NCBI RefSeq assembly: GCF_021401125.1
Contig: NZ_JACBFQ010000006.1
Location: 62,001-126,000, forward strand
DNA: 64,000 nucleotides
From: Xanthobacter sp. NM-59
GTDB taxonomy: Bacteria > Pseudomonadota > Alphaproteobacteria > Rhizobiales > Xanthobacteraceae
Direction of reading: 5' to 3'
The position numbers and the translations under genes were made by a program. The notes below the pieces were generated by a model. That model made no database searches. It was not told where the DNA came from and saw only the letters and a program-made list of their open reading frames with translations. Below, one piece after another: positions 31,961 to 60,641 of this stretch (position 1 is the stretch's first letter; each line of letters begins with the position of its first letter).

Positions 31961-33001
31961 ATGACCGACGAGAGCGCGAGCCCGCAACGTCCCCAGCGCA
32001 GGCCGCAGGTCTTCAAGCTCGACGACAATGCCACCCGCATCACCCTAGCCGCGCCCGAGCCGGAACCGGACAACGGCGCCACGGAGGGCCTGCCCGAGCC
32101 GGCGCGTGGCCCCGCCCGCCGCGCCTCCCGTTTCGGTATGAGCCTTGGCGGGCTGTTCTGGACCGCAGCCGGCGGCGTCGCGAGTCTCGCCCTCTATGCG
32201 GGCTTGAGCCGGCTGGTCAGCGATCTTTATGCGCAGTCGCCGGTGCTGGGCTATGTGGCCCTGGCCCTCGCGGTGGCGCTGGTGGCGGCGGGCACGGTCA
32301 TCCTCGCGCGTGAAGGCATCGGCCTCGCGCGGCTGGCCCATCTCGACCGGGTGCGCGAGAAGGCGGCCGACGCGTTGGCCCGCGACGATCGGGCCCAGGC
32401 CGAAAGCGTCGCCCGTGACATGCTCCGCGTGACGGCCGGGCAGCCCACCCTGGCGCGCGCGCGAAACGAGCTGGAAGGCCATCTCGGCGGCATCATCGAT
32501 GGTGCCGACCTGGTGCGCCTCACCGAGCGCACGCTTCTGCCCGCCCTCGACGCCCGCGCCCGGCAGATGGTGTCGGAGGCAGCCAAGAACGTCTCCGTGG
32601 TCACCGCCGTTTCGCCCCGCGCGCTGGTGGATCTCGCCTTCGTGCTGTTCACCGCGGTCTCGCTCATGCGGCGGCTGGCGCAGCTCTATGGCGGGCGGCC
32701 CGGAGCGCTGGGCATGGTGCGGCTGGTGCGCCACGTGCTCGGCCATCTCGCCATCACCGGCGGCATGGCGGCCGGGGACACGCTGGTTCAGCAGATCATT
32801 GGGCAAGGCTTGGCGGCGCGGCTCTCGGCCAAGCTGGGCGAAGGCGTGGTGAATGGACTGCTCACGGCGCGGCTGGGTCTTGCCGCCATCGCCGTCACAC
32901 GCCCCCTGCCCTTCACCGCCCTGCCGGCCCCCCGCCTTGCAGACGTCGCCACGGGCCTGCTGCGCAAGGCGGAAGAGGAAGAACGCAAGGCCCAAGGGTA
33001 A
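31961..33001 (+). CDS. ycjF: YcjF-family inner-membrane protein (DUF697)
   Basis: Protein of 346 aa, partner of YcjX. The ATG follows a strong GGGAGAGGAA site. A disordered N-terminus (about residues 1-60) with VFKLDDNATRITL precedes two membrane helices (about 62-85 and 92-115), then the DUF697 domain with SPRALVDLAFVLFTAVSLMRRLAQLYGGRPG and a last hydrophobic segment VVNGLLTARLGLAAIAVTRPLPF. The C-terminal RLADVATGLLRKAEEEERKAQG sequence is of interest because the downstream 0.8 kb contains repeated decayed copies of the DNA that encodes it. The function is unknown; an envelope-stress link is inferred from the pair. Confidence 0.9.
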   Translation: MTDESASPQRPQRRPQVFKLDDNATRITLAAPEPEPDNGATEGLPEPARGPARRASRFGMSLGGLFWTAAGGVASLALYAGLSRLVSDLYAQSPVLGYVALALAVALVAAGTVILAREGIGLARLAHLDRVREKAADALARDDRAQAESVARDMLRVTAGQPTLARARNELEGHLGGIIDGADLVRLTERTLLPALDARARQMVSEAAKNVSVVTAVSPRALVDLAFVLFTAVSLMRRLAQLYGGRPGALGMVRLVRHVLGHLAITGGMAAGDTLVQQIIGQGLAARLSAKLGEGVVNGLLTARLGLAAIAVTRPLPFTALPAPRLADVATGLLRKAEEEERKAQG

Positions 33002-33007
33002 CCGCGC

Positions 33008-33822
33008 GGCTTTGCCTTGCCCGCGCCCCCCTCACGGACCTTGTCACAGATCAGCCAGTCGAAGCAGCAAGAGGGAAAGACCCCGGCGAGGCCGCCGCTC
33101 GCCGGCACCGCCGTTCCACACGCCGCCGGTCGGCGTCCCGCCAACGCCACGCCTTTGCGAAAGTGACTAAAGGCCGCTGCGCTGGGCGGGAGGCGAAGAC
33201 CGCAAGACCCCAGTACATGGCGATGATGCCCCTTGCCGGCGCCGCCAGCCCGCGCCCGTCCCTTCAGCACCCTGCCGGCATCACGCCTTGCCGATGTGAC
33301 CGCCGGCCTGCGGCGCAAAGCAAAAGAGGAGGGCACCAGGGTTGAATGCGACGCGGCGGCACCAGCATTGCCAATGCACGCCCGGGTGCTTCGCCGTCCC
33401 CTGTCGCGCGGAGCTGGCGACGAGCCGGATGCTTCAGGCGGAAGGCGAAGAATGCAAAGCTCGGGCACCGGCGCGAGGCCGGGGGCTTGCCATCACTGCC
33501 GTCAGCGCTCCTGCCGCCCGGCGCGCTGTCGACGCCCCGCCGCGCGAGGCAGGGGGAAGAGCGTTGAGCCCAGGGGAACGGCAGGACTGAAGCTTGCCGC
33601 CATCTCCGACACGCCGCGGCCCTTGGCCCACCGGACACTGCCACGAACCTCGACAGAGGCCGCAGCGCGAGACCAAAGGCCAGGTACCACGCTCAGGCAT
33701 AACGACGCGGCCGGGGCCTACCGGCAGCGCCACTCCGCCTCGCACCGGCCCTCCGTCGTCATTTGGCGTGCGCGCCGAATACACTGCCACGCCCTGCAGA
33801 TGCGGAAGCGTGAGGCCCCAGG
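33008..33822 (+). repeat. Tandem array of decayed copies of the ycjF 3' end
   Basis: The parent unit is 32879-33000, the last 40 codons and stop of ycjF. By eye I align further units at about 33010-33088, 33098-33212, 33232-33341, 33367-33464, 33486-33576 and 33593-33684, with a doubtful last one at 33717-33822. Each opens with a variant of CTTGCCGCCATCGCCG and closes with a variant of GCGGAAGAGGAAGA...GCAAGGCCCAAG. Starts are spaced 131, 88, 134, 135, 119 and 107 bp. The unit at 33232 still reads LPASRLADVTAGLRRKAKEE against the genuine LPAPRLADVATGLLRKAEEE. No unit keeps a start signal, so none is a gene. Confidence 0.75.
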
Positions 33823-34021
33823 GACGCTCCCTCCGGCGCCTTCGATGGCCGCAAAGCTGCGGGCGGGTTCGGCCGCTTGGAAACCAGCGGCCACGGATGC
33901 CATGGCGTGTGAGTTGGCGTCCTCATCGCGCGCGAGCCGGTGTCGCCTTCACTCGCAGCAGCTCGGCGGCCGTGCTCAAGCCAACGACGGCTCGCGGCGC
34001 ACCCATCGGGCGGGGGGGCCA
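33823..34021. other. Remainder of the spacer after the ycjF tail array
   Basis: About 200 bp of GC-rich sequence between the array and the 3' end of the leftward membrane-protein gene. I see no gene, terminator or clear repeat in it. Together with the array it makes a gene-free stretch of just over 1 kb. Confidence 0.4.
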
Positions 34022-34612
34022 TCAGCCCGGCAGCAGATGCGCCGGCAGCGCGTCGAGCCGGTAGCGCAGGGGGCGGTTGCGCACCAGCGTCTCCAGGGTG
34101 GGCCAGGCCACCACGACGGATAGCAGGCCGATGATTCCCGCCGTGCTCCATTGCCCCTGAAAGGCCGCGAAGCCGACCACCACCAGCAGGCCGACCGCCG
34201 CCACCAGCCCCAGCCCCACCATCAGCCCCCAGCGCAGAGGGCCATATCCGCCCCGGCACTCCACCGGAACCTTCGCCGCCTCGAGCGCCCCATGGAGCGC
34301 CCGCACGAAGCGGGTGTAATCGGGCCCCTGGTCCCGCACCGCCGTCAGCGAGGTCCGCGAGGCGGAAGCCGCCACCAGCCGCGAGCCCTCGCGCCCCAGA
34401 ATCTCCAGCTCGAACGTGGCGCTGGCGAATTTGGCCGGCTGGAAGCGCAGGTTCAGCCGCGCGATATCCGCGAGCCGCAGCCGCCCCTCGCGCGGGCCAA
34501 CCAGCCATTGCAGAGTATCATCCGCCAGCGTCAGCTGAACCCCAGCGCCACCGAGGCGGGGATGATAGGAATAGGTGGTGGGTTCGGACGACCCGCCGCA
34601 CACATCACTCAT
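34022..34612 (-). CDS. Hypothetical membrane protein
   Basis: Protein of 196 aa, no family recognised. A beta-rich N-terminal domain (TTYSYHPRLGGAGVQLTL, LRLADIARLNLRFQPAKF, FELEILGREGSRLV) resembles small PH-like domains, which is only a structural guess. Two membrane helices follow at about 126-150 and 157-174, with a basic C-terminal end (RNRPLRYRLDALPAHLLPG). The N-terminal domain would face the cytosol if the hairpin is inserted normally. It has a weak ribosome binding site and is separated from phaC by a terminator, so it has its own promoter. Confidence 0.75.
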   Translation of the reverse strand: MSDVCGGSSEPTTYSYHPRLGGAGVQLTLADDTLQWLVGPREGRLRLADIARLNLRFQPAKFASATFELEILGREGSRLVAASASRTSLTAVRDQGPDYTRFVRALHGALEAAKVPVECRGGYGPLRWGLMVGLGLVAAVGLLVVVGFAAFQGQWSTAGIIGLLSVVVAWPTLETLVRNRPLRYRLDALPAHLLPG

Positions 34613-34883
34613 GGCTTACTCACGCCCCTCCCTGTGCCGCCTGTTTCCGCGAATGGCGCCGTGAGCGCAAGGGCGGACCGAGGAAGATCCAGCCTGCCGC
34701 GCCGTTGCGCGACACCTCGGGCCAGGCGCTCCGGCGGGCAGCATGTCTTTCCGCGCGCCGCGCTGCCCCAGGGCGTGGCCAGGGCGACGGTTTGCGCGGT
34801 TCGCCTGCAATGGGAACCGCCCCGTTCGCAGCCGAATACCCCAGCGCAAGCCTGCTCTTTCGCGAAGGTCCAGGGGTTCCCGG
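34613..34883. other. Spacer between phaC terminator and hypothetical membrane protein gene
   Basis: About 270 bp (336 bp counting the phaC terminator and 3' end) without a gene. It should hold the promoter of the leftward membrane-protein gene. Crossing frames are Arg/Pro-rich and lack ribosome binding sites. Confidence 0.4.
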
Positions 34884-34920
34884 AAACAAAAGCGCCGCGC
34901 CCCCGAGGGGAGCGCGGCGC
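34884..34920 (-). terminator. Intrinsic terminator of phaC
   Basis: GCGCCGCGC (34892-34900) and GCGCGGCGC (34912-34920) form a perfect 9-bp stem continued by CCCC/GGGG with one bulged A. Read on the minus strand it is followed by TTTTGTTT. It lies 28 bp after the phaC stop. Confidence 0.8.
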
Positions 34921-34948
34921 GCGGGCTCGAAAGACGACGGGCCAGAGA

Positions 34949-36847
34949 TCAGGAGCGTTCCTTCACATAGCGGCCCGGCGCGTCCTCGATGGCGGTGAGG
35001 CGGCCACCGCCGACCTCGCGGGCGGGAACCTCGTCCGGGTGCCAGGACGAGAACCAGTTCAGCCAATCCGGCCACCAGGAACCCTTATGCTCCTGCGCGC
35101 CCTCCATCCACAGGTCGAAATCGGGGCCGATGGGGCCGTCGGACCAGTATTGGTACTTGTTCTTCACCGGCGGGTTTACCACGCCGGCAATATGGCCCGA
35201 GCCCGCCAGCACATAGCGCACCGGACCGGACAGCAGGTTGGCCCCCACATAGACCGACTTCGGCGGCGCGATGTGGTCTTCGCGCGTCGCCAGCGAGTAG
35301 ACCGGGATCGTCACCTTGTGCATGTCCAGCTTCACGCCCGCGAGCTCGGCCTTGCCCTTGGCGATGTTGTTGGAGAGGTAGCAGTTGCGCAGATAATAGG
35401 AATGGTTCGCCGCCGGCATGCGGGTGGAATCCGCATTCCAGTAGAGCAGATCGAACGGAAACGGCGCCTTGCCCTTCATGTAGTTGTTCACCACATAGGG
35501 CCAGATGAGGTCATTGGAGCGCAGCATGTTGAAGGCGGAGGCCATCTTGCTGCCCTCCAGGTAGCCCATCTGCTTCATCTTGCGTTCCATGACCGCAAGC
35601 TGATCCTCATCCACGAAAACCTTGAGATCGCCCGCATGGGTGAAGTCGATCTGGGTGGTCAGGAAGGTGGTGGAGGCGATGCGGTCGTCGCCCGTCTCGG
35701 CCATATAAGCGAGCGTGCAGGCCAGCAGCGTGCCGCCCACACAATAGCCCACGGTGTGCACACGCCGCTCGCCCGAGGCGATGGCGACCGTGTCCAGCGC
35801 GGCCATGATGCCGTCGCGCATGTAATCGTCGAAGCCCTTGGCCACGAGGCGGGCATCGGGATTGACCCAGGAGATGGTGAAGACCGTAACGCCGTGGTCC
35901 ACCAGCCACTTGATGAGCGACTTCTCGGGATTGAGATCGAGAATGTAGAACTTGTTGATCCAGGGCGGCACGATCAGCACCGGCGTTTTCTTCACGCTGG
36001 CCGTCGTGGGCGAATACTGGATGAGCTGCATCAGCTCGTTTTCGAAGATCACCTTGCCGGGGGTGAGCGCCAGATTGCGCCCCACCTCGAAGGCGGTCAT
36101 GTCGGTCTGGCGGATCTTCAAGGTGCCGCCACCCTCGTTGAGATCCTCCGCCAGGTTGCGCATGCCCTTCACCAGGTTTTCGCCGGAGGAGGACAGGGTT
36201 TCGCGGATCAGCTCGGGATTGGTCAGCACGAAGTTCGATGGCGAGACCGCGTTGGAGATCTGCTTGACCAGGAACTCGGCCTTGTGGCGCACATGGGGGT
36301 CGAGGCCCTCGGCCTCGTTCACCATGTCGTTGGCCCAGTTGGATGTCACGAGATAGGCCTGCTTCAGGGCGTCGAAAATGGGGCTCTCGCGCCAACCCTC
36401 GTCCTTGAAGCGCGCATCCTTGGGGTCGGGAGCCGCCACCGGCTGGGGCTCCTCGCCCGCCAGCTTCTTCATGGTGTTGGCCCACACCGACAGGTAGCCA
36501 CCCATCAGGCGCGTCTGCGCCTCCACCACCCGCTGGGGATCGGCCATCCAATACTCGGCCACGTGGCCCACGGTCTTCAGCGCGTCGGCGATGTCGTCGG
36601 CGAGATCATCGGCGCGGCCGGCCTCGCGCGGGGCGAGATAGGCCGCCACCGCCTTGCCGCTCTCCTCCACCAGCTGGGCAAGGTTGTGGGCGAAGACCTC
36701 CACATTGAGGCTCTTCTCCCCCTCGCTCGCGGGGGCGGCGGGCTTCGCCGGCGGGGCCGCGGGCGCAACCTCCACCGGCGGCGCGGACGAGGCCGCGCCG
36801 GGAGCCGGCTCAGAAGGCGGTGCGGACGGGGCGGCTGAACTGGTCAT
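34949..36847 (-). CDS. phaC: Class I poly(3-hydroxybutyrate) synthase PhaC
   Basis: Protein of 632 aa that polymerises 3-hydroxyacyl-CoA into PHB at the granule surface. The start at 36847 has GGAG about 7 nt upstream; in-frame ATG codons upstream lack such a site. An Ala/Pro-rich N-terminus of about 45 residues precedes the N-terminal PhaC domain. The catalytic triad is visible: Cys369 in the GYCVGG lipase-like box, Asp524 in TREDHIAPP and His552 in [27 protein letters not shown] is the family's conserved block. The class I type is supported by its length and by the lack of an adjacent phaE or phaR subunit. It has its own terminator. The usual phaA/phaB genes are not in this window. Confidence 0.97.
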
Positions 36848-37172
36848 GTCACGCTCCATGGGGCTGCATCCCTGAATTGCAACCATTGCGGGAGAGACGT
36901 GGAGGCCGGAACCCGGAGGCTCCGTTACGGCAATCGAATCCGCGCGCGCGCCTGTGGAAGGAGGCTCGCGGACCGGCGATATCTTGATTCTTGGTGTTCC
37001 CTCGCCTGCGGACATTCCTCCATCCCCTTATTGCGCTCCGCTTTTTTAGCGGACTTCGGTGTCGCGTGTTTCGCGTTTTGGATTTTTGCGCATATTAGCG
37101 GACGAACGGACCCGGATCGAGCCTCGCGGGACTACGGAGGCCAGCAACAACCCCAGGGATTCGCGTGCATTC
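36848..37172. promoter_or_regulatory. Divergent spacer phaC / lipoprotein with inverted and direct repeats
   Basis: A 325-bp region that should hold the phaC promoter on the minus strand. TCCGCT-TTTTT-AGCGGA (37037-37053) is a perfect inverted repeat. TTAGCGGAC occurs at 37046-37054 and again at 37095-37103, 49 bp apart. The tract 37010-37105 is A/T-richer than its flanks. These are candidate operator sites; which protein binds is unknown, although PhaR-type repressors commonly act at phaC. Confidence 0.4.
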
Positions 37173-37544
37173 ATGTCCATGATGCGTCCCCGCAAGCGGA
37201 CCTGCCCATCCCTTCGCTCCCCCGTGCGGCCGGCTTTCGGCCTTCTGGCGCGGAGCGCCTTCGCGGCGTCCATGCTGGCGGCGGCCGCCGGGCTGAGCGC
37301 CTGCTCCGGCGACTCGACGCTGACATTGCCTGTTCCGCCCCATCCGGACGTACCGGAAGTTGCCCATGATTCCTACCCCACCATCGGCGCCACGCCCCAC
37401 ACCGGAAGACCGGCCCTGAACGAGGCCCAGAGGGCCCGCCTGCAGGGCGACCTGGAGCGTGCCTCCAAGACCAACTCAGCCAAGGCGCAGGCCGCCGCGC
37501 AGGCGTCCACGCCCGCAGCCGAGCCCCAGCCCGCCACCAACTGA
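37173..37544 (+). CDS. Small predicted lipoprotein
   Basis: Protein of 123 aa with a lipoprotein signal: basic N-terminus (MRPRKR), hydrophobic stretch (LLARSAFAASMLAAAAG) and lipobox LSAC with lipidation at Cys44. The mature part is short, Pro-rich (PVPPHPDVPEVAHDSYPTIG), then helical (ALNEAQRARLQGDLERASKT) and ends in an Ala/Pro/Gln tail. Two further in-frame ATGs at 37179 and 37182 are possible starts; ribosome binding is weak. No family is recognised. A short periplasmic helper or peptidoglycan-linked role is possible, which is inference. Confidence 0.65.
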   Translation: MSMMRPRKRTCPSLRSPVRPAFGLLARSAFAASMLAAAAGLSACSGDSTLTLPVPPHPDVPEVAHDSYPTIGATPHTGRPALNEAQRARLQGDLERASKTNSAKAQAAAQASTPAAEPQPATN

Positions 37545-37684
37545 CCCGACCCGATTTGACCCGACACGCGCATCTTCGCCCCGAAACCATCGCAATCATT
37601 GCTTCTTGATTTCGCGAAGAGTGCTAAAACACCCGTCCGCCGCGCCGGGAGACACATGCTGCGCGGCACCCTGGAGCCAATGAG

Positions 37685-38905
37685 ATGACCACCGATTTCC
37701 ACCGCATTCGCCGGCTGCCGCCCTACGTGTTCGAGCAAGTGAACCGTGTGAAGGCCGCCGCTCGCAATGCCGGGGTGGATATCATCGACCTCGGCATGGG
37801 CAATCCGGACCTCGAAGCGCCGGCGCACGTGATCGAGAAGCTCAAGGAAACCATCGGCAAGCCGCGCACCGATCGCTACTCTGCCTCCAAGGGCATTCCC
37901 GGGCTGCGCAAGGCGCAGGCCGCCTATTACGAGCGCCGGTTCGGCGTGAAGCTCAATCCCGATACCCAGGTGGTCGCCACGCTGGGCTCGAAGGAAGGCT
38001 TCGCCAACATGGCGCAGGCCATCACCGCGCCGGGCGACGTGATTCTCACGCCGAATCCCTCCTACCCCATTCACGCCTTCGGCTTCCTGATGGCGGGCGG
38101 CGTCATCCGCTCCGTGCCGGTGGAGCCGGGGCCGGAATTCTTCCACGCCATGGAACGGGCGGTGAAGCACTCCATCCCTAAGCCCATCGCCGTGGTGCTG
38201 TGCTATCCCTCCAACCCCACGGCGTGCGTGGCGGATCTGGAATTCTACAAGGACGTGGTGGCCTTCGCGAAGAAGAACGAGCTGATCGTTCTCTCCGACC
38301 TCGCCTATGCCGAGCTGTATTATGACGGCAACCCGCCTCCCTCCGTGCTGCAGGTGCCGGGCGCCATGGACGTGACGGTGGAGTTCACCTCCATGTCCAA
38401 GACCTATTCCATGGCCGGCTGGCGCATGGGCTTCGCGGTGGGCAATGAACGGCTCATCTCCGCGCTGTCGCGGGTGAAGTCCTATCTGGACTATGGCGCG
38501 TACACGCCGATCCAGGTGGCCGCCACCGCCGCCCTCAACGGCCCGCAGGAGTGCGTGGCCGAAATGCGCGAGACCTATAAGAAGCGCCGGGATGCGCTGG
38601 TGGATGCGTTCGGCCGGGCGGGCTTCCCCGTCCCCTCGCCGAAGGCCTCCATGTTCGCGTGGGCGCCCATTCCCGAACCGTTCCGGGCAATGGGCTCGGT
38701 GGAATTCGCCAAGCTGCTGATCGAGAAGGCGGAAGTGGCGGTAGCGCCGGGCGTGGGCTTCGGTGAGCACGGCGACGACTATGTGCGCATCGCGGTGGTG
38801 GAGAATGAGCAGCGCATCCGCCAGGCGGCGCGCAACATCCGCCGCTTCTTCGACCAGGCCGGCCACACCCTGCACAATGTGGTCCCGCTGAGCGCCGCGC
38901 TCTGA
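37685..38905 (+). CDS. alaC: Alanine-forming / LL-DAP-like class I aminotransferase
   Basis: Protein of 406 aa, close to E. coli AlaC (glutamate-pyruvate aminotransferase) and the wider LL-diaminopimelate aminotransferase group. Motifs: DLGMGNPDLEAPAHV, TLGSKEGFANMA, SYPIH, CYPSNPTA, Asp205 in VLSDLAYAELYYDG, and the Schiff-base Lys239 in TSMSKTYSMAGWRMGF. The N-terminal FHRIRRLPPYVFEQVN fits AlaC well. It probably makes alanine from pyruvate. Position upstream of hom (82-bp gap with a hairpin) is a common arrangement in Alphaproteobacteria and suggests co-regulation of aspartate-family and alanine synthesis. GGAGCC precedes the ATG. Confidence 0.85.
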   Translation: MTTDFHRIRRLPPYVFEQVNRVKAAARNAGVDIIDLGMGNPDLEAPAHVIEKLKETIGKPRTDRYSASKGIPGLRKAQAAYYERRFGVKLNPDTQVVATLGSKEGFANMAQAITAPGDVILTPNPSYPIHAFGFLMAGGVIRSVPVEPGPEFFHAMERAVKHSIPKPIAVVLCYPSNPTACVADLEFYKDVVAFAKKNELIVLSDLAYAELYYDGNPPPSVLQVPGAMDVTVEFTSMSKTYSMAGWRMGFAVGNERLISALSRVKSYLDYGAYTPIQVAATAALNGPQECVAEMRETYKKRRDALVDAFGRAGFPVPSPKASMFAWAPIPEPFRAMGSVEFAKLLIEKAEVAVAPGVGFGEHGDDYVRIAVVENEQRIRQAARNIRRFFDQAGHTLHNVVPLSAAL

Positions 38906-38936
38906 AAGAGCCCCCGCAGCCACTTATCCAGACATC

Positions 38937-38957
38937 ACGCCCGCCTCGCGCGGGCGT
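38937..38957 (+). other. Hairpin between alaC-like gene and hom
   Basis: ACGCCCGC (38937-38944) pairs perfectly with GCGGGCGT (38950-38957) across a 5-nt loop. It has no T-run after it, so full termination is unlikely. It may slow polymerase or protect the upstream transcript's 3' end. Confidence 0.5.
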
Positions 38958-38987
38958 CCTGTTCCCAGGAAAGAACCGGTCCGATCC

Positions 38988-40292
38988 ATGAGCGATTTGA
39001 AAGTGGGCCTCGCCGGCCTTGGCACCGTCGGGGCCGCCGTCATCCGCATGCTCGAACGGCGCGCGGGTGACCTTTTCGCGCGCACCGGCCGCGGCATCAA
39101 GGTGGTGGCCGTCGCCGCGCGCGACCGGACCAAGGATCGCGGCGTCGATCTCTCCGGCGTGCGCTGGTACGAGGACCCGGTAGAACTGGCCCGCGATCCG
39201 GACATCGACGTGTTCGTGGAGCTCATGGGCGGGTCGGACGATCCGGCCAAGGCTGCGGTGATCGCGGCGCTGGAGTGCGGCCGTCCGGTGGTGACTGCCA
39301 ACAAGGCCCTGCTCGCCAAATGGGGCGCCGACCTCGCCCGCATCGCGGAAGCCTCCGGCGCCAGCCTGCATTTCGAGGCGGCGGTGGCGGGCGGCATCCC
39401 GATCGTGAAAACCCTGCGCGAATCGCTCGCGGGCAATGTGGTGGAGCGGGTTTCCGGCATCCTCAACGGCACCTGCAACTACATGCTCACCCGCATGGCC
39501 GACGAGAAGATCTCGTTCCAGGACTGCCTGGCCGAGGCCCAGCGCCTGGGCTATGCGGAGGCCGACCCCACCTTCGACATTGACGGCTTCGACACCGCCC
39601 ACAAGCTGGCCATCCTCACCTCGCTGGCCTTCGGCACCCAGGTGGACGCCGACGCCATCTATGTGGAGGGCATCCGCCAGCTTACGCTGGAGGACCTCGA
39701 GGCCGCCGACGACCTCGGCTACAAGGTGAAGCTGCTGGGTGTCGCCCTGCGCACAGAGACCGGCATCGAGCAGCGCGTGCATCCCACCATGGTCCCCAAG
39801 CACTGGCCCATCGCCCAAGTTTCCGGTGTCACCAACGCGGTGGCGGTGGACGCGGACGCGGTGAGCCTGACCCTGGTGGGCCCCGGCGCCGGCGGCGATG
39901 CCACCGCCTCGGCGGTGGTGGGCGATCTGGCCGATGTGGCCCGCGGCGTGGCCGGCTTCGTGTTCGGCATGCCGGTGGCGACCCTGATGAAGCCCGAGCG
40001 GGCGCCCATGCAGCGCCATGAAGGCGGCTATTACATCCGCCTCTCGGTGGTGAACAAGCCGGGCACCGCCGCCACCATCGCGCGCCGCATGGCCGACGAG
40101 GGCATTTCGCTCGAATCGATCGTGCAGCGCCGTCCTGAAGGACAGCAGGGTGAGGCCGCGCAGGGGACGGCGCGCGTCATCCTGATCACCTACGCAACGT
40201 CGGAAGAAGCCGTGCGGCGCGCCATCGCCGCCATCGAGGCGGATGGGGTGGTGAACGCACTGCCGCAAGTGATCCGCATCGAGAAGGATTGA
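38988..40292 (+). CDS. hom: Homoserine dehydrogenase
   Basis: Protein of 434 aa that reduces aspartate semialdehyde to homoserine, the branch to threonine and methionine. The NAD(P)-binding loop GLAGLGTVG is at residues 7-15. Catalytic-domain motifs include VVTANKALLAKWG, GGIPIVKTLRESLAGN and GILNGTCNYMLTRM (the signature), and EAQRLGYAEADPTFDIDGFDTAHK. A C-terminal ACT domain (about 350-434, YYIRLSVVNKPGTAATIA) is expected to give feedback inhibition by threonine. glpX starts 18 bp downstream, so the two are co-transcribed. Confidence 0.97.
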   Translation: MSDLKVGLAGLGTVGAAVIRMLERRAGDLFARTGRGIKVVAVAARDRTKDRGVDLSGVRWYEDPVELARDPDIDVFVELMGGSDDPAKAAVIAALECGRPVVTANKALLAKWGADLARIAEASGASLHFEAAVAGGIPIVKTLRESLAGNVVERVSGILNGTCNYMLTRMADEKISFQDCLAEAQRLGYAEADPTFDIDGFDTAHKLAILTSLAFGTQVDADAIYVEGIRQLTLEDLEAADDLGYKVKLLGVALRTETGIEQRVHPTMVPKHWPIAQVSGVTNAVAVDADAVSLTLVGPGAGGDATASAVVGDLADVARGVAGFVFGMPVATLMKPERAPMQRHEGGYYIRLSVVNKPGTAATIARRMADEGISLESIVQRRPEGQQGEAAQGTARVILITYATSEEAVRRAIAAIEADGVVNALPQVIRIEKD

Positions 40293-40310
40293 GGCCAGAA
40301 GGACAACACC

Positions 40311-41324
40311 ATGTGCGCCGCCCCCCTGCACGAGAGAATGCCTCAAGTCCTCGATCGCCGTCTGGCCCTCGACCTTGCCCAGATCACCGAGCGCTGCGCC
40401 GTCGCCGCCGCGCGCCTGCGTGGCCGCGGTGACGAACAGGAAGCCGACCTGGCGGCCATGGCGGCCTGCTGGCGCGAGCTGCAGACCGTTCCCGTCAACG
40501 GCACCGTCGTCATCGGCGAGGGCGCGAAGGGAGAGGTCGAGCACCTGTTCGTGGGTGAGACCTTCGGTGCTGGCGGCGAGGGCGACAACGCCACCGTGGA
40601 CCTCGCGGTGGATGCGCTGGAAGGCTCCACCCTGTGCGCCAAGAACATGGAGGGCTCCATCTCGGTGCTCGCCATCGCGGAAGCGGATTCGCTGCTGAAG
40701 GTGCCGCCCGTCTATATGGAGAAGCTGGCCATCGGCCCCGGCTATCCCGACGGCATCGTCTCCCTCTCCCGCCCGCCCGAGGAGAATGTGCAGGCCCTGG
40801 CCGAGGCGAAGGGCGTGCCCACCTCGGAAATCACCGCGCTCATCCTCGACCGCCCCCGCCATGCGCCCCTCATCGAAGCGGTGCGCAAGACCGGCGCGGC
40901 CATCAAGCTCATCACCGACGGTGACGTCGCCGGCATCATCCACACCACCAATCCCGAGGAAAGCGGGGTGGATATCTATCTCGGCCTCGGAGGCGCGGCG
41001 GAAGGCGTGCTGGCGGCGGCGGCGCTGCGCTGCATCGGCGGCCAGATGCAGGGCCGGCTCGTGCTGGACACAGAGAGGAAGCGCGAGCAGGCCAAGGCGC
41101 TGGGCATCCGCGACGGCTCCAAGATCTATCACCTCGAGGAAATGGTGCGGGGCGATTGCCTCGTCTCCGCCACCGGCGTCACCGACGGCGCGCTCCTCAA
41201 GGGCGTGCGCTTCGACCGCGAGGTGATCGAGACCGACACCATCGTGCTGCGGGCCGCCACTGGCACCGTGCGCCGCATCACCACCGAGCATCGCGACTTC
41301 CGCAAGTTCCGCTTCGCGGAGTAG
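40311..41324 (+). CDS. glpX: Class II fructose-1,6-bisphosphatase GlpX
   Basis: Protein of 337 aa that hydrolyses fructose-1,6-bisphosphate (and possibly sedoheptulose-1,7-bisphosphate) in gluconeogenesis or the Calvin cycle. Metal and substrate motifs: VVIGEGAKGEVEHLFVGE, the DALEGSTLCA box, YMEKLAIGP, ITDGDVAGII and the glycine-rich LGLGGAAEGVLAAAALRC loop. AAGGA lies about 8 nt before the ATG. It follows hom by 18 bp. In many related genomes recJ comes next; here argC and a GntP permease intervene and recJ is reversed about 4 kb away. Confidence 0.96.
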   Translation: MCAAPLHERMPQVLDRRLALDLAQITERCAVAAARLRGRGDEQEADLAAMAACWRELQTVPVNGTVVIGEGAKGEVEHLFVGETFGAGGEGDNATVDLAVDALEGSTLCAKNMEGSISVLAIAEADSLLKVPPVYMEKLAIGPGYPDGIVSLSRPPEENVQALAEAKGVPTSEITALILDRPRHAPLIEAVRKTGAAIKLITDGDVAGIIHTTNPEESGVDIYLGLGGAAEGVLAAAALRCIGGQMQGRLVLDTERKREQAKALGIRDGSKIYHLEEMVRGDCLVSATGVTDGALLKGVRFDREVIETDTIVLRAATGTVRRITTEHRDFRKFRFAE

Positions 41325-41339
41325 AAGCGAGCCCCGATA

Positions 41340-41362
41340 CCGCCGGCCGGCGGGTGTCTTTT
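41340..41362 (+). terminator. Likely intrinsic terminator after glpX
   Basis: CCGCC (41340-41344) pairs with GGCGG (41349-41353) around GGCC, followed by GTGTCTTTT. The stem is short but GC-rich; some read-through to argC is possible. Confidence 0.45.
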
Positions 41363-41444
41363 CCCTGATACGGGATGGGTGTAGAGACCGTCGCCGCACG
41401 AAAGCCGCCCCTACCGGGGCGCGCGGCGATGTCAGGAGAGGAAG

Positions 41445-42497
41445 ATGGCGGACGCAAAGGCAAGGATCGCGGTTCTCGGTGCCTCTGGCTACACCGGTTC
41501 CGAGCTGGTGCGCCTGCTGCTGCGCCATCCGCGTGTGGAGATCGTCGCCCTGACCGCCGACCGCAAGGCCGGCCTGTCCATGGCCGACGTGTTCCCGCAG
41601 TTCGCGCCCTTCCCGCTGCCCAAGCTGGTCACCATTGATGCGGTGGACTTCAGCGCGGTGGATCTCGTCTTCTGCGCCCTGCCCCACGGCACGACGCAGG
41701 AAGTCATCAAGAAGGTGCTCGAAAGCTCCTCCACGGTGAAGGTGGTGGACCTGTCCGCCGACTTCCGCCTGAAGGACCCGGGCGCCTACGAGCAGTGGTA
41801 CGGCCACCCCCACAGCGCCCTCGACCTGCAGCAGGAGGCGGTGTTCGGCCTCGTGGAGATCTATCGCGACGACATCCGCAAGGCGCGGCTGGTGGCCAAT
41901 CCGGGCTGCCACACCACCACGTCGATCCTGCCGGTGGTGCCGCTCTTGGAAGCCGGCGCCATCGACCCCGAATCCATCGTGATCGATTCCAAGACCGGCA
42001 TGTCCGGCGCCGGCCGCTCGGCCAAGGAAGCCATGCTGTTCTCCGAGGTGTCGGAGGGCATCCACGCCTATTCCGTGGGCTCACACCGGCACATGGCCGA
42101 GCTGGACCAGGAATATTCCAAGGCCGCCGGGCGGCAGGTGGTCCCCATGTTCGTGCCGGTGCTGGCACCCATGAACCGGGGCATCTACGCCACCATCTAC
42201 GTGCGCACCACGGGCGCCACCGCCGAGGACCTGCACAAGCTCATCTCGGCCTATTACAAGGGCGAGACCTTCGTGCACGTGCTGCCCTTCGGCGCGGTAC
42301 CACAGTCCCGCCACGTGCGCGGCTCCAACATGGTGTTCATCGGCGTGGTGGCCGACCGGGTGAGCGGGCGCGCTATCATCCTTTCCACCCTGGACAACCT
42401 GGTGAAGGGCGCCTCCGGCCAGGCGGTGCAGAACATGAACCTCGTTCTGGGCTTCCCCGAAGCCATGGGGCTGGAGCAGATTGCCCTCATGCCGTGA
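41445..42497 (+). CDS. argC: N-acetyl-gamma-glutamyl-phosphate reductase
   Basis: Protein of 350 aa, NADPH-dependent third step of arginine synthesis. AGGAGAGGAAG immediately precedes the ATG. The Rossmann loop GASGYTG is at residues 12-18 and the catalytic Cys155 lies in NPGCHTTTS. Other family blocks are ALPHGTTQEVI, VVDLSADFRLKD, SKTGMSGAGRSAKE and PFGAVPQSRHVRGSN (His near the active site). Length fits the type I enzyme. It is flanked by a likely terminator upstream and a strong one downstream, so it may be its own unit. Confidence 0.97.
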   Translation: MADAKARIAVLGASGYTGSELVRLLLRHPRVEIVALTADRKAGLSMADVFPQFAPFPLPKLVTIDAVDFSAVDLVFCALPHGTTQEVIKKVLESSSTVKVVDLSADFRLKDPGAYEQWYGHPHSALDLQQEAVFGLVEIYRDDIRKARLVANPGCHTTTSILPVVPLLEAGAIDPESIVIDSKTGMSGAGRSAKEAMLFSEVSEGIHAYSVGSHRHMAELDQEYSKAAGRQVVPMFVPVLAPMNRGIYATIYVRTTGATAEDLHKLISAYYKGETFVHVLPFGAVPQSRHVRGSNMVFIGVVADRVSGRAIILSTLDNLVKGASGQAVQNMNLVLGFPEAMGLEQIALMP

Positions 42498-42524
42498 GTC
42501 TTCTCACGCATCTCTGACCTTACG

Positions 42525-42558
42525 ACAACCGCCCGCGGCCATGCCGGGGCGGTTGTTT
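42525..42558 (+). terminator. Intrinsic terminator of argC
   Basis: ACAACCGCCC (42525-42534) pairs perfectly with GGGCGGTTGT (42547-42556), a 10-bp stem with a 12-nt loop, followed by a short T/C run (TTCGTCTT). Confidence 0.85.
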
Positions 42559-42746
42559 CGTCTTCAGCAGGCAATCCCAAGGGGCTCTTGCCGTGCGGAA
42601 TCATTACCAAATCGTAAATATCCCGGTGGATATCCACCCAAAGCGAGTCGCTGCCCGATTTATGGCAGGGTAGCTTCCCCATGCTGGTGCATGCACTGGC
42701 ATAGAGGTTCGACGTTCCCTCCATTCTTTTGCTGGATCCAACGCCG

Positions 42747-44138
42747 ATGAGCTTCATCATCTGCCTTGCGGCGCTCTTCTTCCTGATGTTCGTGGCCTAT
42801 CGCGGCTTCAGCGTCATCCTGTTTGCCCCGGTCGCCGCCATTGGCGCGGTGCTCCTGACGGACCCTGGTGCGGTTCCGGTCATCTTTTCCGGCCTGTTCA
42901 TGGAAAAGATGGTGGGCTTCATCAAGCTCTACTTCCCCGTGTTCCTGCTCGGCGCCGTGTTCGGCAAGCTCATCGAGCTGTCGGGCTTCTCGCGGTCCAT
43001 CGTGTCCGCCATCGTGAAGCTGCTGGGCCCCTCCCGCGCCATCCTGTCCATCGTGCTGGTGGGCGCGCTGCTCACCTATGGCGGCGTGTCGCTGTTCGTG
43101 GTGGTGTTCGCGGTCTATCCGTTCGGCGCGGAGATGTTCCGCCAGGTGGGCATTCCGAAGCGGCTCCTGCCGGCGGTGGTGGCGCTGGGCGCCTTCTCCT
43201 TCACCATGGATACGCTGCCGGGTACCCCGCAGATCCAGAACATCATCCCCACCACCTTCTTCAAGACCACCGCCTATGCGGCGCCGATCCTCGGCTTCGT
43301 GGGCACGGCCTTCATTTTGGTGGTCGGCCTCTCCTATCTGGAGTTCCGCCGCAAGCAGGCCCAGAAGAAGGGTGAGGGCTACGGCACCGGCCACATCAAC
43401 GAAGTGGTGGTGGACGAGAGCGTGCCGCTGGTGTCCCCCTGGCTGGCGCTGCTGCCGCTGGTGGTGGTGGGCATCGCCAACCTGGTGTTCGCGCGCCTCA
43501 TCCCCACCTGGTATGAGGCCACCGCCTCCGTCACCCTTACCGAGGGTGGCCATGCGGTGAGCGTGTCGACCGCCAGCTGGGCCGCCATCTGGTCGGTGCA
43601 GGCGGCATTGCTGCTGGGCATCGTCACGGTTCTGCTGTTCGCCTTCAAGCCCATCGCCGGCAAGTTCGCGGGCGGCTCGAAGGATGCCGTGGGCGGCGCG
43701 CTGCTCGCCAGCCTGAACACCGCCACGGAGTACGGCTTCGGCGCGGTCATCGCGGCGCTGCCGGGCTTCCTGGTCATCAAGAACGCGCTGTCCGCCATCC
43801 CGAACCCTCTCGTCAACGAGGCGATCACGGTCACCACCCTGGCCGGCATCACGGGTTCGGCCTCGGGCGGCCTGTCCATCGCGCTGGCGGCCATGTCGGA
43901 GCAGTTCATTGCCCAGGCCCATGCCTATGGCATTCCGCTGGAAGTGATGAGCCGCGTGGCCTCCATGGCCTCCGGCGGCATGGACACCCTGCCCCATAAC
44001 GGAGCGGTCATCACCCTTCTGGCGGTGACGGGCCTCACCCACCGCCAGTCCTATGGCGACATCTTCGCCATCACCATCATCAAGACGCTGGCGGTGTTCT
44101 TCGTCATCGGCTTCTACTGGTTCACCGGCCTCTACTGA
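42747..44138 (+). CDS. GntP-family permease
   Basis: Protein of 463 aa with about twelve membrane helices, in the gluconate:H+ symporter (GntP) family. Blocks visible: YGGVSLFVVVFAVYPFGAEMFR, FSFTMDTLPGTPQIQNIIPT, and ASLNTATEYGFGAVIAALPGF, then SGGLSIALAAMSEQFI and SMASGGMDTLPHNGAVITLLAVTGL near the end. The family carries gluconate, other sugar acids and 3-hydroxybutyrate; the substrate here is unknown. The ATG at 42747 is chosen, with a weak GGA site, over an in-frame TTG at 42729. It is followed by its own terminator. Confidence 0.9.
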   Translation: MSFIICLAALFFLMFVAYRGFSVILFAPVAAIGAVLLTDPGAVPVIFSGLFMEKMVGFIKLYFPVFLLGAVFGKLIELSGFSRSIVSAIVKLLGPSRAILSIVLVGALLTYGGVSLFVVVFAVYPFGAEMFRQVGIPKRLLPAVVALGAFSFTMDTLPGTPQIQNIIPTTFFKTTAYAAPILGFVGTAFILVVGLSYLEFRRKQAQKKGEGYGTGHINEVVVDESVPLVSPWLALLPLVVVGIANLVFARLIPTWYEATASVTLTEGGHAVSVSTASWAAIWSVQAALLLGIVTVLLFAFKPIAGKFAGGSKDAVGGALLASLNTATEYGFGAVIAALPGFLVIKNALSAIPNPLVNEAITVTTLAGITGSASGGLSIALAAMSEQFIAQAHAYGIPLEVMSRVASMASGGMDTLPHNGAVITLLAVTGLTHRQSYGDIFAITIIKTLAVFFVIGFYWFTGLY

Positions 44139-44160
44139 GCCTGCCGACCCCCCAAAAGGA

Positions 44161-44191
44161 CCCCGCGCGCCACCCGGCCCGCGGGGTTTTT
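44161..44191 (+). terminator. Intrinsic terminator after GntP permease gene
   Basis: CCCCGCG (44161-44167) pairs with CGCGGGG (44180-44186) around a 12-nt loop and is followed directly by TTTTTCTTT. It sits 22 bp after the stop, between convergent genes. Confidence 0.9.
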
Positions 44192-44193
44192 CT

Positions 44194-44904
44194 TTATCCG
44201 GCCGCCGCTTTCTCCCGATCCGCCGGCAGGCAAAAGATCTCCGCCACCGCCACCAAGGGCGGCACCAGCATGCACCACATGCCCACCATCAAATAAAGGA
44301 AGGCCGCGAGCCCGCACCCGCCCACGAAGCCGAGGAAATTGGCGCCGAACCGCCGCAGCCGCTCGCGGTGCACATGCCGCTCGGCGCCGGGATGGGGCCA
44401 GAGCAGATTGGAGCCGTCTACCAGCAGCTGGGTGACGGTGCCGGTGACCATGGTGGAGGGTGGCAGATCCTTCAGATGGGTGCGATGCAAAGCGTTCTGC
44501 ACCGCCATGGCACTCACCAGAGTCATGCCCGTCATGAGGGCGCTCGGCGCACTGGGATCGGGAAACGGCCCGATCACGATGGCTACCAGGGCCGCATGGG
44601 CGAGCAGCACCAGCTTGCCCGCCATCAGAATGCGGAAATCGCTCTGCCCCCGCACGGCCATGGCCCGGCCCAGCAGATGCGCCGCCACCACGACGATGGC
44701 GAAGACCGGCATGGCGATGACCTTGCCCACCTCCGGCGCATGCCCCTGCGCCAGCGCCGCCGAGAAGGTGACGATATTGCCCGTGACATGGGCCGTGAAC
44801 AGGCCACCCAGGGCGACGAAACCGGCCGTATCCACGAAGCCGGCATTGAAACACAACAGGATCGGCAACCACCGGCTCACGCTGGCATCCCCCGGGAATC
44901 GCAT
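44194..44904 (-). CDS. DUF1275 (YoaK-type) membrane protein
   Basis: Protein of 236 aa with about six membrane helices. Family blocks: LCFNAGFVDTAGFVALGGLFTAHVTGN near the start (the DUF1275 signature G-F-x-D-x-x-G and TxHxTGN), and MAVQNALHRTHLKDLPPSTMVTGTVTQL in the middle. Function is unknown. The start at 44904 follows the family's length; no good ribosome binding site precedes it. Its upstream region is made of decayed recJ tail copies, so its promoter must lie within that array. Confidence 0.85.
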   Translation of the reverse strand: MRFPGDASVSRWLPILLCFNAGFVDTAGFVALGGLFTAHVTGNIVTFSAALAQGHAPEVGKVIAMPVFAIVVVAAHLLGRAMAVRGQSDFRILMAGKLVLLAHAALVAIVIGPFPDPSAPSALMTGMTLVSAMAVQNALHRTHLKDLPPSTMVTGTVTQLLVDGSNLLWPHPGAERHVHRERLRRFGANFLGFVGGCGLAAFLYLMVGMWCMLVPPLVAVAEIFCLPADREKAAAG

Positions 44905-44978
44905 CACGGCGCATGATGCACGGCCGGCACGGGATACAAGCGACGATCTTTGGTGCCATCCCGCCGGAGGAGCCGGCA

Positions 44979-45443
44979 GCCGACCTCGGCCACGTCCTTG
45001 ATCCATAACGAAACGCGTGCTTCGCCCGGTCAGGCCTCTGGCTCCAGGGAACAGGCCGCATGCAGCGGCCACCAGCAGAGCCCACCGCCGCCCTTCAGCC
45101 CTGCTCCGGGATGTCCGTGATGCGCAGGGAGACGCGGGTCTCGCCCTGCCAGGTCTCCGGCTCCAGGGAACCGACCACATGCAGTCCCGCCCGCGTGCCG
45201 CCAGCACGGCTCGGCGCAACAGCAGATTTTGGGATCATCCCGGAGGGCGGCGGACGCCCTGTGGCCCAGCTCCGGGACGTCATAGATATGCAGGGAAACG
45301 TGCGGCTCGCCCTGCCACAGGTTGCCGGTCTTTGGAGCGAGCGATATTAAAGTAGCGCCTGCCTGTCCCCCCCCCCCAGCAGAGCCCAGCCCAACGGCAG
45401 CTTTCGGCGCCATCCCGGCGCGTGGCAGGCCGGCAGCCGCCCT
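44979..45443 (-). repeat. Tandem array of decayed copies of the recJ 3' end
   Basis: The parent is the recJ tail from 45444 rightwards. Aligned by eye, three further units lie at about 44979-45084 (A), 45101-45220 (B) and 45267-45396 (C), anchored at 45003, 45122, 45288 and, in recJ itself, 45471. Unit B matches recJ at 61 of 63 bases over 45122-45184 versus 45471-45533. It still reads LHVVGSLEPETWQGETRVSL, then ITDIPEQG and a stop, against LHVAGSLEPETWQGETRVSL, IKDVAEVA and a stop in recJ. A and C are more diverged; C carries an 11-C run at 45367-45377. Short spacer parts (TTTNGGNGCCATCCCG) repeat too. No unit has a start signal. Confidence 0.85.
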
Positions 45444-47264
45444 TCAGGCCACTTCCGCCACGTCCTTGATGCGCAGGGAGACGCGAGTCTCGCCCTGCCA
45501 GGTCTCCGGCTCCAGGGAACCGGCCACATGCAGCGGCCGCCCGCGGGCCGCCAGCAGGGCCCGGCCCAGCGGTTCGTCCGCCACGCGGAAGGCGATCGCC
45601 TTCAGGCTCGACCCATCGCCGGACATCAGCCGCGCCCGCACATGGCCGGCGCCGAAGCTCTCCACATAGGAGAGCTTATGGTTGGGAAAGGCGAACACCG
45701 GCTCCGGATTGCCAGCGCCGAACGGGCCGGCGCGGGCGACAGTTTCGGCCAACGCCGGCGTCGCCGCTGCGGCGGTCAGGGCACCGTCCACGGTCAGGGC
45801 CCCCTCGGCCCGCGAGCGCTCCACATCGGCACCGAGCCGCTCTTCCAGATGGGCGCGCAGATCGCCGAGCCGAGCGCGCTCCACCGTCAGGCCGGCTGCC
45901 ATGGCGTGGCCGCCGCCCTTCACGAGAAGCCCCTTCTCCACCGCCTCGCGGACGGCGCGGCCGAGATCCACCCCGGGCACGGAGCGGCCCGAGCCGGTGC
46001 CGGTGGCGCCATTGAGGGCGATGGCGAAAGCGGGGCGCTGGAAACGCTCCTTCAGGCGCGAGGCGACGAGGCCCACCACGCCGGGGTGCCAGCCCTCCCC
46101 GCTCACCACCACCACGGGGCCCTCGTCGTGAAGGCCGAGGGCCGCCTGCGCTTCCGCCTCGGCGGCGGCGACGATGGCGCGCTCCACCTCCTGGCGCTCG
46201 CTATTCAGGCGGTTCAGCTCGGTGGCGATGGTCTTCGCCTCCATGGGATCCTGGGTGAGCAGCAGCCGCGCGCCAAGCGCCGCATCGCCGATGCGCCCGC
46301 CCGCATTGATGCGCGGGCCAAGGATGAAGCCGAGATGATAGGGCCGCGGCGGCCCATCCAGCCGCGCCACGTCCATCAGCGCGGTGAGGCCCAGCCGGCC
46401 ACGTCGGCGCAGGGCGATAAGGCCCTTGGTGACAAACGCCCGGTTGAGGCCGGTGAGGGGCACCACGTCCGCCACCGTGGCCAGGGCCACGAGGTCCAGC
46501 GCCTCCAGCAGATCCGGCGCCGGCCGGTCGGTCCCGAAATGCCCGGCCTGCCGCAGCGCCCGCACCAGCCCCACGGCGGTGATGAAGGTGAGCCCCGCAG
46601 CGCACACATGGCCGAGACCGGAAAGGTCGTCCTCCCGGTTCGGATTCACGATGGCCTGGGCGGGCGGCAGCGCCTCGCTCGCCTGGTGATGGTCGATCAC
46701 CACCACGTCCATGCCCAACCGGCGGGCGGCGGCCAGCGGCTCGATGGAGGTGGTGCCGCAATCCACCGTCACCAGCAGCTTCACGCCCTCGGCGGCCAGG
46801 GCCTCGATGGCCGGCACATTGGGGCCGTAGCCTTCATAGATGCGATCAGGAATATGAAAGAGCGGGTCGAGCCCCGCCTGCCGCAGCAGCCCCACCAGCA
46901 GCGCCGTGGAGCATGCGCCATCCACGTCATAGTCCCCGAACACCGCCACCTTCTCGCCGCGGGTGACGGCATAAGCGAGCCGCGCCACCGCGGGGGCCAT
47001 GTCGGTGAGGGTATCGGGATCAGGCAGAAGGGTGCGCAAAGCGGGATCGAGATAGGTCTCGACGTCCTCCAGGGCGACGCCCCGCCCGGCGAGCACGCGG
47101 GCGAGCAGGTCGCTCACACCGTAGCGCTGGGCCATGGCGAGGGCCGTCTGTGCGCCGCGCACATCCAGCCGCTCCCGCCAGGCGCGGCCGGTGGCGGATT
47201 GGGAGACGTTGAGGAAGGGTCGATTCGTCAGGGCGATATTCACCGGCTCATGAAGCCAGAGCAT
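45444..47264 (-). CDS. recJ: Single-strand-specific 5'-3' exonuclease RecJ
   Basis: Protein of 606 aa that degrades single-stranded DNA in the RecF pathway, mismatch repair and replication-fork repair. DHH-family motifs: FGDYDVDGACS (Asp residues 111-115), VDCG at 167-170, IDHH at 190-193, and HVCAAGLTF. The DHHA1 domain carries KGGGHAMAAGLTV, and the C-terminal OB-like domain includes FGAGNPEPVF. The start lies at the family's usual N-terminus (LNVSQSATGRAW). Size matches typical RecJ. It is probably a single-gene unit here. Confidence 0.97.
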   Translation of the reverse strand: MLWLHEPVNIALTNRPFLNVSQSATGRAWRERLDVRGAQTALAMAQRYGVSDLLARVLAGRGVALEDVETYLDPALRTLLPDPDTLTDMAPAVARLAYAVTRGEKVAVFGDYDVDGACSTALLVGLLRQAGLDPLFHIPDRIYEGYGPNVPAIEALAAEGVKLLVTVDCGTTSIEPLAAARRLGMDVVVIDHHQASEALPPAQAIVNPNREDDLSGLGHVCAAGLTFITAVGLVRALRQAGHFGTDRPAPDLLEALDLVALATVADVVPLTGLNRAFVTKGLIALRRRGRLGLTALMDVARLDGPPRPYHLGFILGPRINAGGRIGDAALGARLLLTQDPMEAKTIATELNRLNSERQEVERAIVAAAEAEAQAALGLHDEGPVVVVSGEGWHPGVVGLVASRLKERFQRPAFAIALNGATGTGSGRSVPGVDLGRAVREAVEKGLLVKGGGHAMAAGLTVERARLGDLRAHLEERLGADVERSRAEGALTVDGALTAAAATPALAETVARAGPFGAGNPEPVFAFPNHKLSYVESFGAGHVRARLMSGDGSSLKAIAFRVADEPLGRALLAARGRPLHVAGSLEPETWQGETRVSLRIKDVAEVA

Positions 47265-60226: not shown

Positions 60227-60540
60227 GGTGCGGCCGGGCACGGCGATGCCGCCGGGGCGCATCGCATTCCAGGAACAGGGGTGGGGAGGAACGCGCTTGT
60301 CCTCCCGTTTGCCGGGAAGCGAGGAGCTTGACGACCCGCTTGGCCTATCGCCATTCAGCGCGCGTGGTGCGGCTTGCACTTTGTTACCACCGCGTTCCTC
60401 ACGGTGCCGCCCACCTCCCGCTTGCGTCGAGGACCGGGGTGCAGGCAAAACGCTGGCAACGTAGCGCCGGCAGCGCGGCGAAGGGCAACGCCTCGAAAAT
60501 CTCAAAAAGTCTTGAATCCTAGGGCTCCATGCCGGTGAGG

Positions 60541-60641
60541 TGGTCCTGCCCTAAGTGGTCCTGCCCTAAGTGGTCCTGCCCTAAGTGGTCCTGCCCTAAG
60601 TGGTCCTGCCCTAAGTGGTCCTGCCCTAAGTGGTCCTGCCC
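60541..60641 (+). repeat. 15-bp tandem repeat, about 6.7 copies
   Basis: The unit TGGTCCTGCCCTAAG is repeated six times exactly, followed by 11 bases of a seventh. There are no mismatches between units, so the array is recent or homogenised. In one frame each unit reads WSCPK; that frame has an ATG at 60529 but no ribosome binding site. Confidence 0.95.

Follow-up and report, generated by a model that had tools for sequence, protein, structure and literature searches.

The window analysed here, a stretch of 64,000 nucleotides, is part of the 4.96-Mb draft genome of Xanthobacter sp. NM-59, labelled G000. Two of its genes, ycjF (DUF697, Pfam PF05128; positions 31961 to 33001, plus strand) and recJ (Pfam DHH, DHHA1 and RecJ_OB; 45444 to 47264, minus strand), are the sources of two arrays made up of copies of their own 3' ends. 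Such sense tandem copies had been proposed by a sequence-only reading of the window, and they are confirmed as real. Nine copies, six behind ycjF and three behind recJ, all in the sense orientation, are individually significant in a piecewise test that compares each segment of a gap with 1,000 dinucleotide shuffles; no shuffle reached the score of any of the nine. Gene ends in the counts over whole sets of genes and gaps given below are our own calls, not annotation.

The ycjF array

The gap behind ycjF is 1,020 bp long and contains six supported sense copies of the last ~130-140 bp of the gene, plus a marginal seventh. The native tail, from about -140 to the stop codon (32862 to 33001, plus strand), is the founding unit, and a unit scan places the best unit at about -140 to -10 relative to the gene end. 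All copies lie on the plus strand. A shortened copy 1 (33014 to 33083) is followed by copy 2 (33081 to 33213), found also by blastn and wraparound alignment, copy 3 (33214 to 33342; 77% identity over 91 nt), copy 4 (33343 to 33460), copy 5 (33461 to 33575) and copy 6 (33576 to 33699). The possible copy 7 (33700 to 33831) has a score reached by 21 of 1,000 shuffles, and the remainder of the gap (33832-34021) shows no tail-like sequence (595 of 1,000 shuffles reach its score). By blastn, tail copies lie at gap offsets 239-329 (77%), 83-212 (69%), 416-459 (75%) and 592-623 (83%). Wraparound alignment of the gap to the unit -140..-10 covers offsets 13-838 with a score of 324, compared with a best score of 62 among 20 shuffled gaps scored on a thinned unit grid. 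Ungapped autocorrelation, which does not use the gene as a reference, leaves the array invisible (107 of 200 shuffles reach the top lag).

A match to the start of the ycjF unit begins at the stop codon itself, a match that 15-67 of 2,000 shuffles equal, according to the piece boundaries chosen. The C-terminus of ycjF in G000 reads EEEERKAQG*, and genus mates end in forms such as EEEEAAASRRQ*. The convergent neighbour (34022 to 34612, minus strand), which has no Pfam hit and whose own tail is not copied, still ends in G000 in the usual LLPG*. It seems that ycjF acquired a new end at the junction and that its neighbour retained its own.

The recJ array

In the 563-bp gap behind recJ, three sense tail copies lie between 44976 and 45333, all on the minus strand. 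Self-alignment and the unit scan identify the native tail plus 8 nt past the stop (45436 to 45568, minus strand) as the founding unit, with a best unit of -120 to the stop. Copy 1 (45215 to 45333), recognized also in the alignment, lacks its front part; copy 2 (45095 to 45218) is 87% identical to the native tail; copy 3 (44976 to 45094), detected also by blastn and wraparound alignment, is 75-79% identical. Copies 2 and 3 are spaced 119 nt apart, and the wraparound path spans these two only, with a score of 302, where the best of 20 shuffles has 72. Neither end of the gap is tail-like: 167 of 1,000 shuffles reach the score of 45334-45443 and 471 of 1,000 that of 44904-44975. Autocorrelation without the gene as reference gives only a hint of this array (9 of 200 shuffles). 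The sequence-only reading had also described the units as including some downstream spacer, which holds for recJ (~8 nt past the stop) and not for ycjF, where no spacer is visible. Downstream of recJ lies a DUF1275 gene (PF06912; 44194 to 44904, minus strand), whose 5' end is not copied according to the head test.

Features common to both arrays

Antisense controls are unremarkable, except for recJ copy 1, whose antisense score is reached by 2 of 200 shuffles. Neither gap contains copies of the ends of the neighbouring genes, and no dispersed copies of either gap occur in the 861 kb of G000 DNA that was scanned for tails, heads and dispersed copies; two query stretches gave one whole-genome match each at E 0.001. 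Both arrays are founded on local DNA and not on a dispersed family, and the same-sense copies are contiguous or nearly so, with one exception of 110 nt behind recJ. A tandem-repeat finder reports nothing within either gap, and an inverted-repeat scan gives four weak pairs, all of them behind ycjF.

Ancestral state and age

Among the genomes compared, the closest relative of G000 by recJ is Xanthobacter agilis LMG 16336 (G013), with recJ 93% identical. Relatives within the genus show the unduplicated ancestral state. In all 11 comparable genus mates ycjF and its convergent neighbour overlap by 12-15 bp, a comparison that leaves out G005 (no ycjF match) and G010 (repeated tails at a contig end). 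The gap behind recJ measures 10-144 bp in all 11 genus mates measured, a set that leaves out G011, where recJ is in two pieces, and 1,286 bp in G010; six of those 11 have a DUF1275-like gene next to recJ, and the other five have a different gene there, in convergent orientation. The 1,020 and 563 bp found in G000 are therefore gains. The ancestral state shows how an overlapping gene pair separated, and most of the new kilobase of spacer behind ycjF is the gene's own tail, repeated and decayed.

At sites where the genes of G000 and X. agilis differ, the copies tend to carry the G000 state. The recJ copies show 22 G000 against 6 X. agilis states (p 0.004), a count drawn from copies 2 and 3 plus one short piece, and the ycjF copies show 71 against 45 (p 0.02). 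The alignment was neutral between both genomes, and the p values treat sites as independent, which is not fully true. Because the copies carry G000 over X. agilis states, the arrays most likely arose on the window's branch, after the split from X. agilis. Differences between the ycjF copies and the gene are spread evenly over codon positions (75/273, 79/263 and 81/258), and the copies are ~70% like the gene and 48-62% like each other, a star-like pattern. Copies of similar age that can change freely, next to a gene under selection, are expected to show this pattern; the decay alignments of both arrays were fitted to the native tail.

Recurrence at other loci and in other genomes

Two further expansions of the same genes were found in another member of the genus, G010, whose genome is 93% complete. 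One recJ tail copy in G010 is 91.7% identical over 84 nt and ends at the stop; two ycjF tails, one of them possibly native, lie in a 276-nt repeat at a contig end. The units differ from those of G000, and likeness between the arrays of the two genomes at recJ and ycjF is limited to tail sequence, so the arrays appear to have arisen separately. At the named recJ loci (n=79; 74 with at least 300 nt downstream) nothing comparable was seen, the one match having 24 nt and 35.6 bits.

Four further array-bearing genes of G000 were queried for arrays in other genomes. They are presumably Tex, an indolepyruvate oxidoreductase-like gene, a homospermidine synthase-like gene and a histidine kinase-like gene. 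In G010 neither of the first two has an array behind it, the homospermidine synthase-like gene has its next gene at 4 bp and another array farther along the locus, and the histidine kinase-like gene could not be placed. X. agilis and G012 have no detectable array at any of the four. Long convergent gaps without a detected array do occur in X. agilis behind Tex and the homospermidine synthase-like gene (699 and 459 bp; L256, L255), where G012 has 63 and 124 bp; those long gaps are possibly older arrays that have decayed past recognition.

Distribution over gene ends and gap classes

The sequence-only reading had suggested a general process that duplicates gene tails and had proposed comparing tails with heads across the genome. 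In 861 kb of G000 and 490 kb of G010, blastn with a threshold of 40 bits was used to find same-sense copies within 1 kb. In G000, 2 of 781 tails and 2 of 783 heads have such copies. In G010 the counts are 8 of 399 tails against 0 of 400 heads (p 0.004), three of the eight (L239, L240) having their copies more than 500 nt away, where related neighbouring genes could be the source. Antisense copies at 40 bits are absent from both genomes.

A more sensitive wraparound scan aligns each gap of at least 150 bp to the cyclic tail unit and requires a score of at least 80; the codon model of G000 was applied to all genomes for these counts, for those by blastn and for the gap classes and array densities below. 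It passes 4 of 244 tails and 1 of 289 heads in G000, where the 3' excess rests mainly on ycjF and recJ, and 6 of 170 tails and 1 of 198 heads in G010. Elsewhere it passes no tail or head in X. agilis (0/54 and 0/68) or G012 (0/50 and 0/82), 1 of 28 tails and 0 of 46 heads in G014, and 0 of 340 tails and 6 of 488 heads at 80 named recJ loci. Antisense passes number none in G000, G010, G012 and X. agilis, one in G014 and three in the named loci. For G000 and G010 pooled, 10 of 414 tails exceed 2 of 487 heads (p=0.016). Unpicked counts, taken without the window and without the G010 contigs chosen because of recJ or ycjF, give 6 of 370 against 2 of 427 (p=0.15). Outside these two genomes heads exceed tails (6/684 vs 1/472), contrary to a universal 3' excess.

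The class of the gap gives a clearer result. Whatever their founding sequence, intergenic arrays in G000 and G010 occur in 11 of 146 convergent, 9 of 856 codirectional and 0 of 150 divergent gaps, or in 9 of 131, 6 of 790 and 0 of 134 in the unpicked set. Convergent gaps differ from codirectional ones at p 2e-5 (4e-5 unpicked) and from divergent ones at p 0.0003 (0.0015 unpicked). By these counts and those for tails and heads, gap class is the strong signal and tail content the weaker one. Pairs under 60 nt, periods outside 40-450 (which removes a 15-base minisatellite), contig-end arrays, L225 (two mmgR small RNAs), L238:9400 (which spans a called gene) and L220:4511 (a repetitive gene head) were dropped from this count, and two arrays sharing one gap counted once; the L220 repetitive head was retained in the head counts. 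The twin mmgR (suhB) small RNA genes follow one and the same gene in G000 (L225:1770-2211) and X. agilis (L262:2101-2688).

Before these exclusions, arrays per Mb number 11.6 in G000, 30.6 in G010, 13.9 in G014 (two arrays in 144 kb), 4.2 in X. agilis, 0 in G012 (240 kb scanned) and 3.5 in the named loci, so that G000 is not outstanding next to G014. Some lineages, those of the window and G010 and perhaps that of G014, make or keep arrays more often than others. Of the proposed general process there stands that more than one accident is at hand, with other 3'-side intergenic arrays in G000 and G010, rich in convergent gaps, and with the blastn excess of tails in G010; its generality fails in nearby genomes, and the tail excess weakens once the picked loci are removed.

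G010 also has a palindromic repeat of ~36 nt that resembles the repetitive extragenic palindromic (REP) type, with ~36 sites in 490 kb (e.g. L082:5505-5540), some within several of its arrays. The same repeat occurs 5 times in 861 kb of G000, twice in 240 kb of X. agilis and 4 times in 240 kb of G012. Part of the array load of G010 may thus have a cause of its own.

Origin of the arrays

Both arrays probably come from ordinary local tandem duplication that was tolerated at 3' junctions and then decayed. An array would start with a local tandem duplication of ~120-140 bp, from the coding tail to the stop or just past it, and the unit would then multiply to three to seven extra copies that decay as spacer. 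The duplication itself could be the work of replication slippage or template switching, and unequal exchange may have followed. To judge from the gap classes that carry arrays, a duplication would do least harm at a 3' junction, where the gene still terminates in its first copy, the next gene remains complete and no promoter is interrupted. Where genes of a compact genome nearly touch or overlap, a duplication exceeding the gap would have to include coding tail, and the spacer would for that reason come to resemble a series of gene ends. Tolerated local duplication would account for the anatomy, gap class, one-sidedness and decay of the arrays with nothing new, and selection alone would likewise yield a 3' bias.

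Several observations weigh against this account. The recJ copies differ from the gene unevenly, at 26 of 116, 17 of 115 and 32 of 115 sites in codon positions 1, 2 and 3, a pattern that could stem from silent substitutions in recJ itself or from a constraint of some kind. A stretch of 110 nt without tail likeness separates the recJ stop from the first copy. The ycjF copies are ~30% different from the gene, above most orthologous gaps between G000 and X. agilis, so an early origin after the split or fast decay is needed. Copies were judged too diverged to read junction homology, a mark of slippage. Both recJ and ycjF are expanded in G010 too, with other units; by our own arithmetic, for a uniform random process in which 3-4% of tails carry arrays, such double recurrence is ~0.1% likely, and it was noticed after the fact.

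The recurrence at the same two genes in two lineages, the preference of arrays in G000 and G010 for convergent over codirectional and divergent gaps, and the blastn tail excess in G010 would also suit a process active at gene 3' ends, in which convergent transcription, R-loops or transcription-replication collisions close to gene ends would trigger template switching and with it a further copy of the tail. The same placement is expected, however, from selection against the splitting of promoters and the widening of operon spacing; the unpicked sensitive scan leaves the tail excess at p 0.15, and recJ is not convergent with its neighbour in G000. The sequence-only reading had named transcription-replication conflict as a possible cause, but the two genes are 12 kb apart on opposite strands and GC skew keeps its sign between them, so that at most one should be head-on to replication. 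We consider such a process unlikely. We are similarly doubtful of its fuller form, in which some Xanthobacter lineages would direct re-copying of 3' ends, preferably at convergent junctions, with recJ and ycjF affected independently and overlapping pairs driven apart. Loss of MutS was set aside as a cause: both G000 and G010 have MutS, which was not found in X. agilis and G008.

That the copies are functional 3' sequence under selection, such as terminators, RNA stabilisers or regulatory sites, appears very unlikely. They do sit behind genes and in sense, and the recJ copies have their fewest differences at second codon positions. Neither gap has a terminator-like site or the character of a structured 3' RNA, however, RNA folding of the gaps is no better than that of shuffles (z +1.19 and +0.48), and Rfam gives no match at gathering score in the window. 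The ycjF copies decay evenly, and the gaps are absent or short in 11 genus mates.

Gene 3' ends are known attachment sites of integrative elements, and the copies could be remnants of mobile elements that attached there and carried a replacement tail. We give this even less credence: most copies abut, the sole clear non-tail stretch between them is the ~110 nt behind the recJ stop, no copies lie elsewhere in 861 kb, and the copies carry the host lineage's own states. No element-sized DNA separates the copies and the alignment has no perfect core of an attachment site, which decay could have erased; integrases were not searched for.

End-joining repair, also named by the earlier reading as a possible cause, would insert local copies by way of Ku and LigD, and is hardly to be credited at all. 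In its favour, Ku is present in 8 of 14 genus genomes searched and in G014 with its two arrays in 144 kb. Against it, Ku has no match in G000 or G010, in a search that covered Ku and not LigD or Ku-independent joining, and G012 has Ku yet no arrays in 240 kb. The genus genomes without a Ku match are G000, G002, G005, G008, G010 and G013 (6 of 14), and the other eight have two matches each.

Relation to known repeats

Close direct repeats, in the account attributed to Achaz et al., are reportedly made by tandem duplication and then decay. The present arrays resemble them as local, same-sense, ordinary sequence with units near each other that diverge with age. They differ in being founded by a coding tail at 3' junctions, and in counting four (recJ) and seven or eight (ycjF) units including the native one. 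Minisatellites, or arrays of variable number of tandem repeats (VNTR), share head-to-tail units at a single place; the units here are ~120-140 bp long and about 67-87% identical to a working founder gene. Clustered repeats between genes are also a feature of REP elements, or palindromic units (PU), but the arrays of the window have no dispersed copies in 861 kb and are not dispersed palindromes.

In tandem duplication-random loss in animal mitochondrial genomes a duplicated stretch leaves decaying partial gene copies next to an intact gene. Decaying partial copies adjoin an intact gene here as well, though on a bacterial chromosome, with units far below gene length and gene order unchanged. 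The model is named in PMC4223735. Literature searches, which included passages of PMC2884548 and PMC1635066, returned no paper on gene-tail arrays. If 3' junctions generally retain such duplications, seemingly unique intergenic DNA may often consist of decayed gene ends, with consequences for annotation, for spurious small-gene calls and for how intergenic growth is modelled. The cause can be tested, since array-rich lineages have array-poor sisters.

Other repeats in the window

A weaker third trace, suspected behind an SbcC-like gene (60300-60530), is not supported, with 40 in sense against 38 in antisense. The gap behind the same gene holds an exact 15-base minisatellite of 6.8 perfect copies (60540-60641). 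Short-period tandem repeats also occupy 480-986 and 6049-6553 of the window, a CCXGGX-type stretch, which we take to be collagen-like, and a GCCGAGAAGGCCGCC-type stretch.

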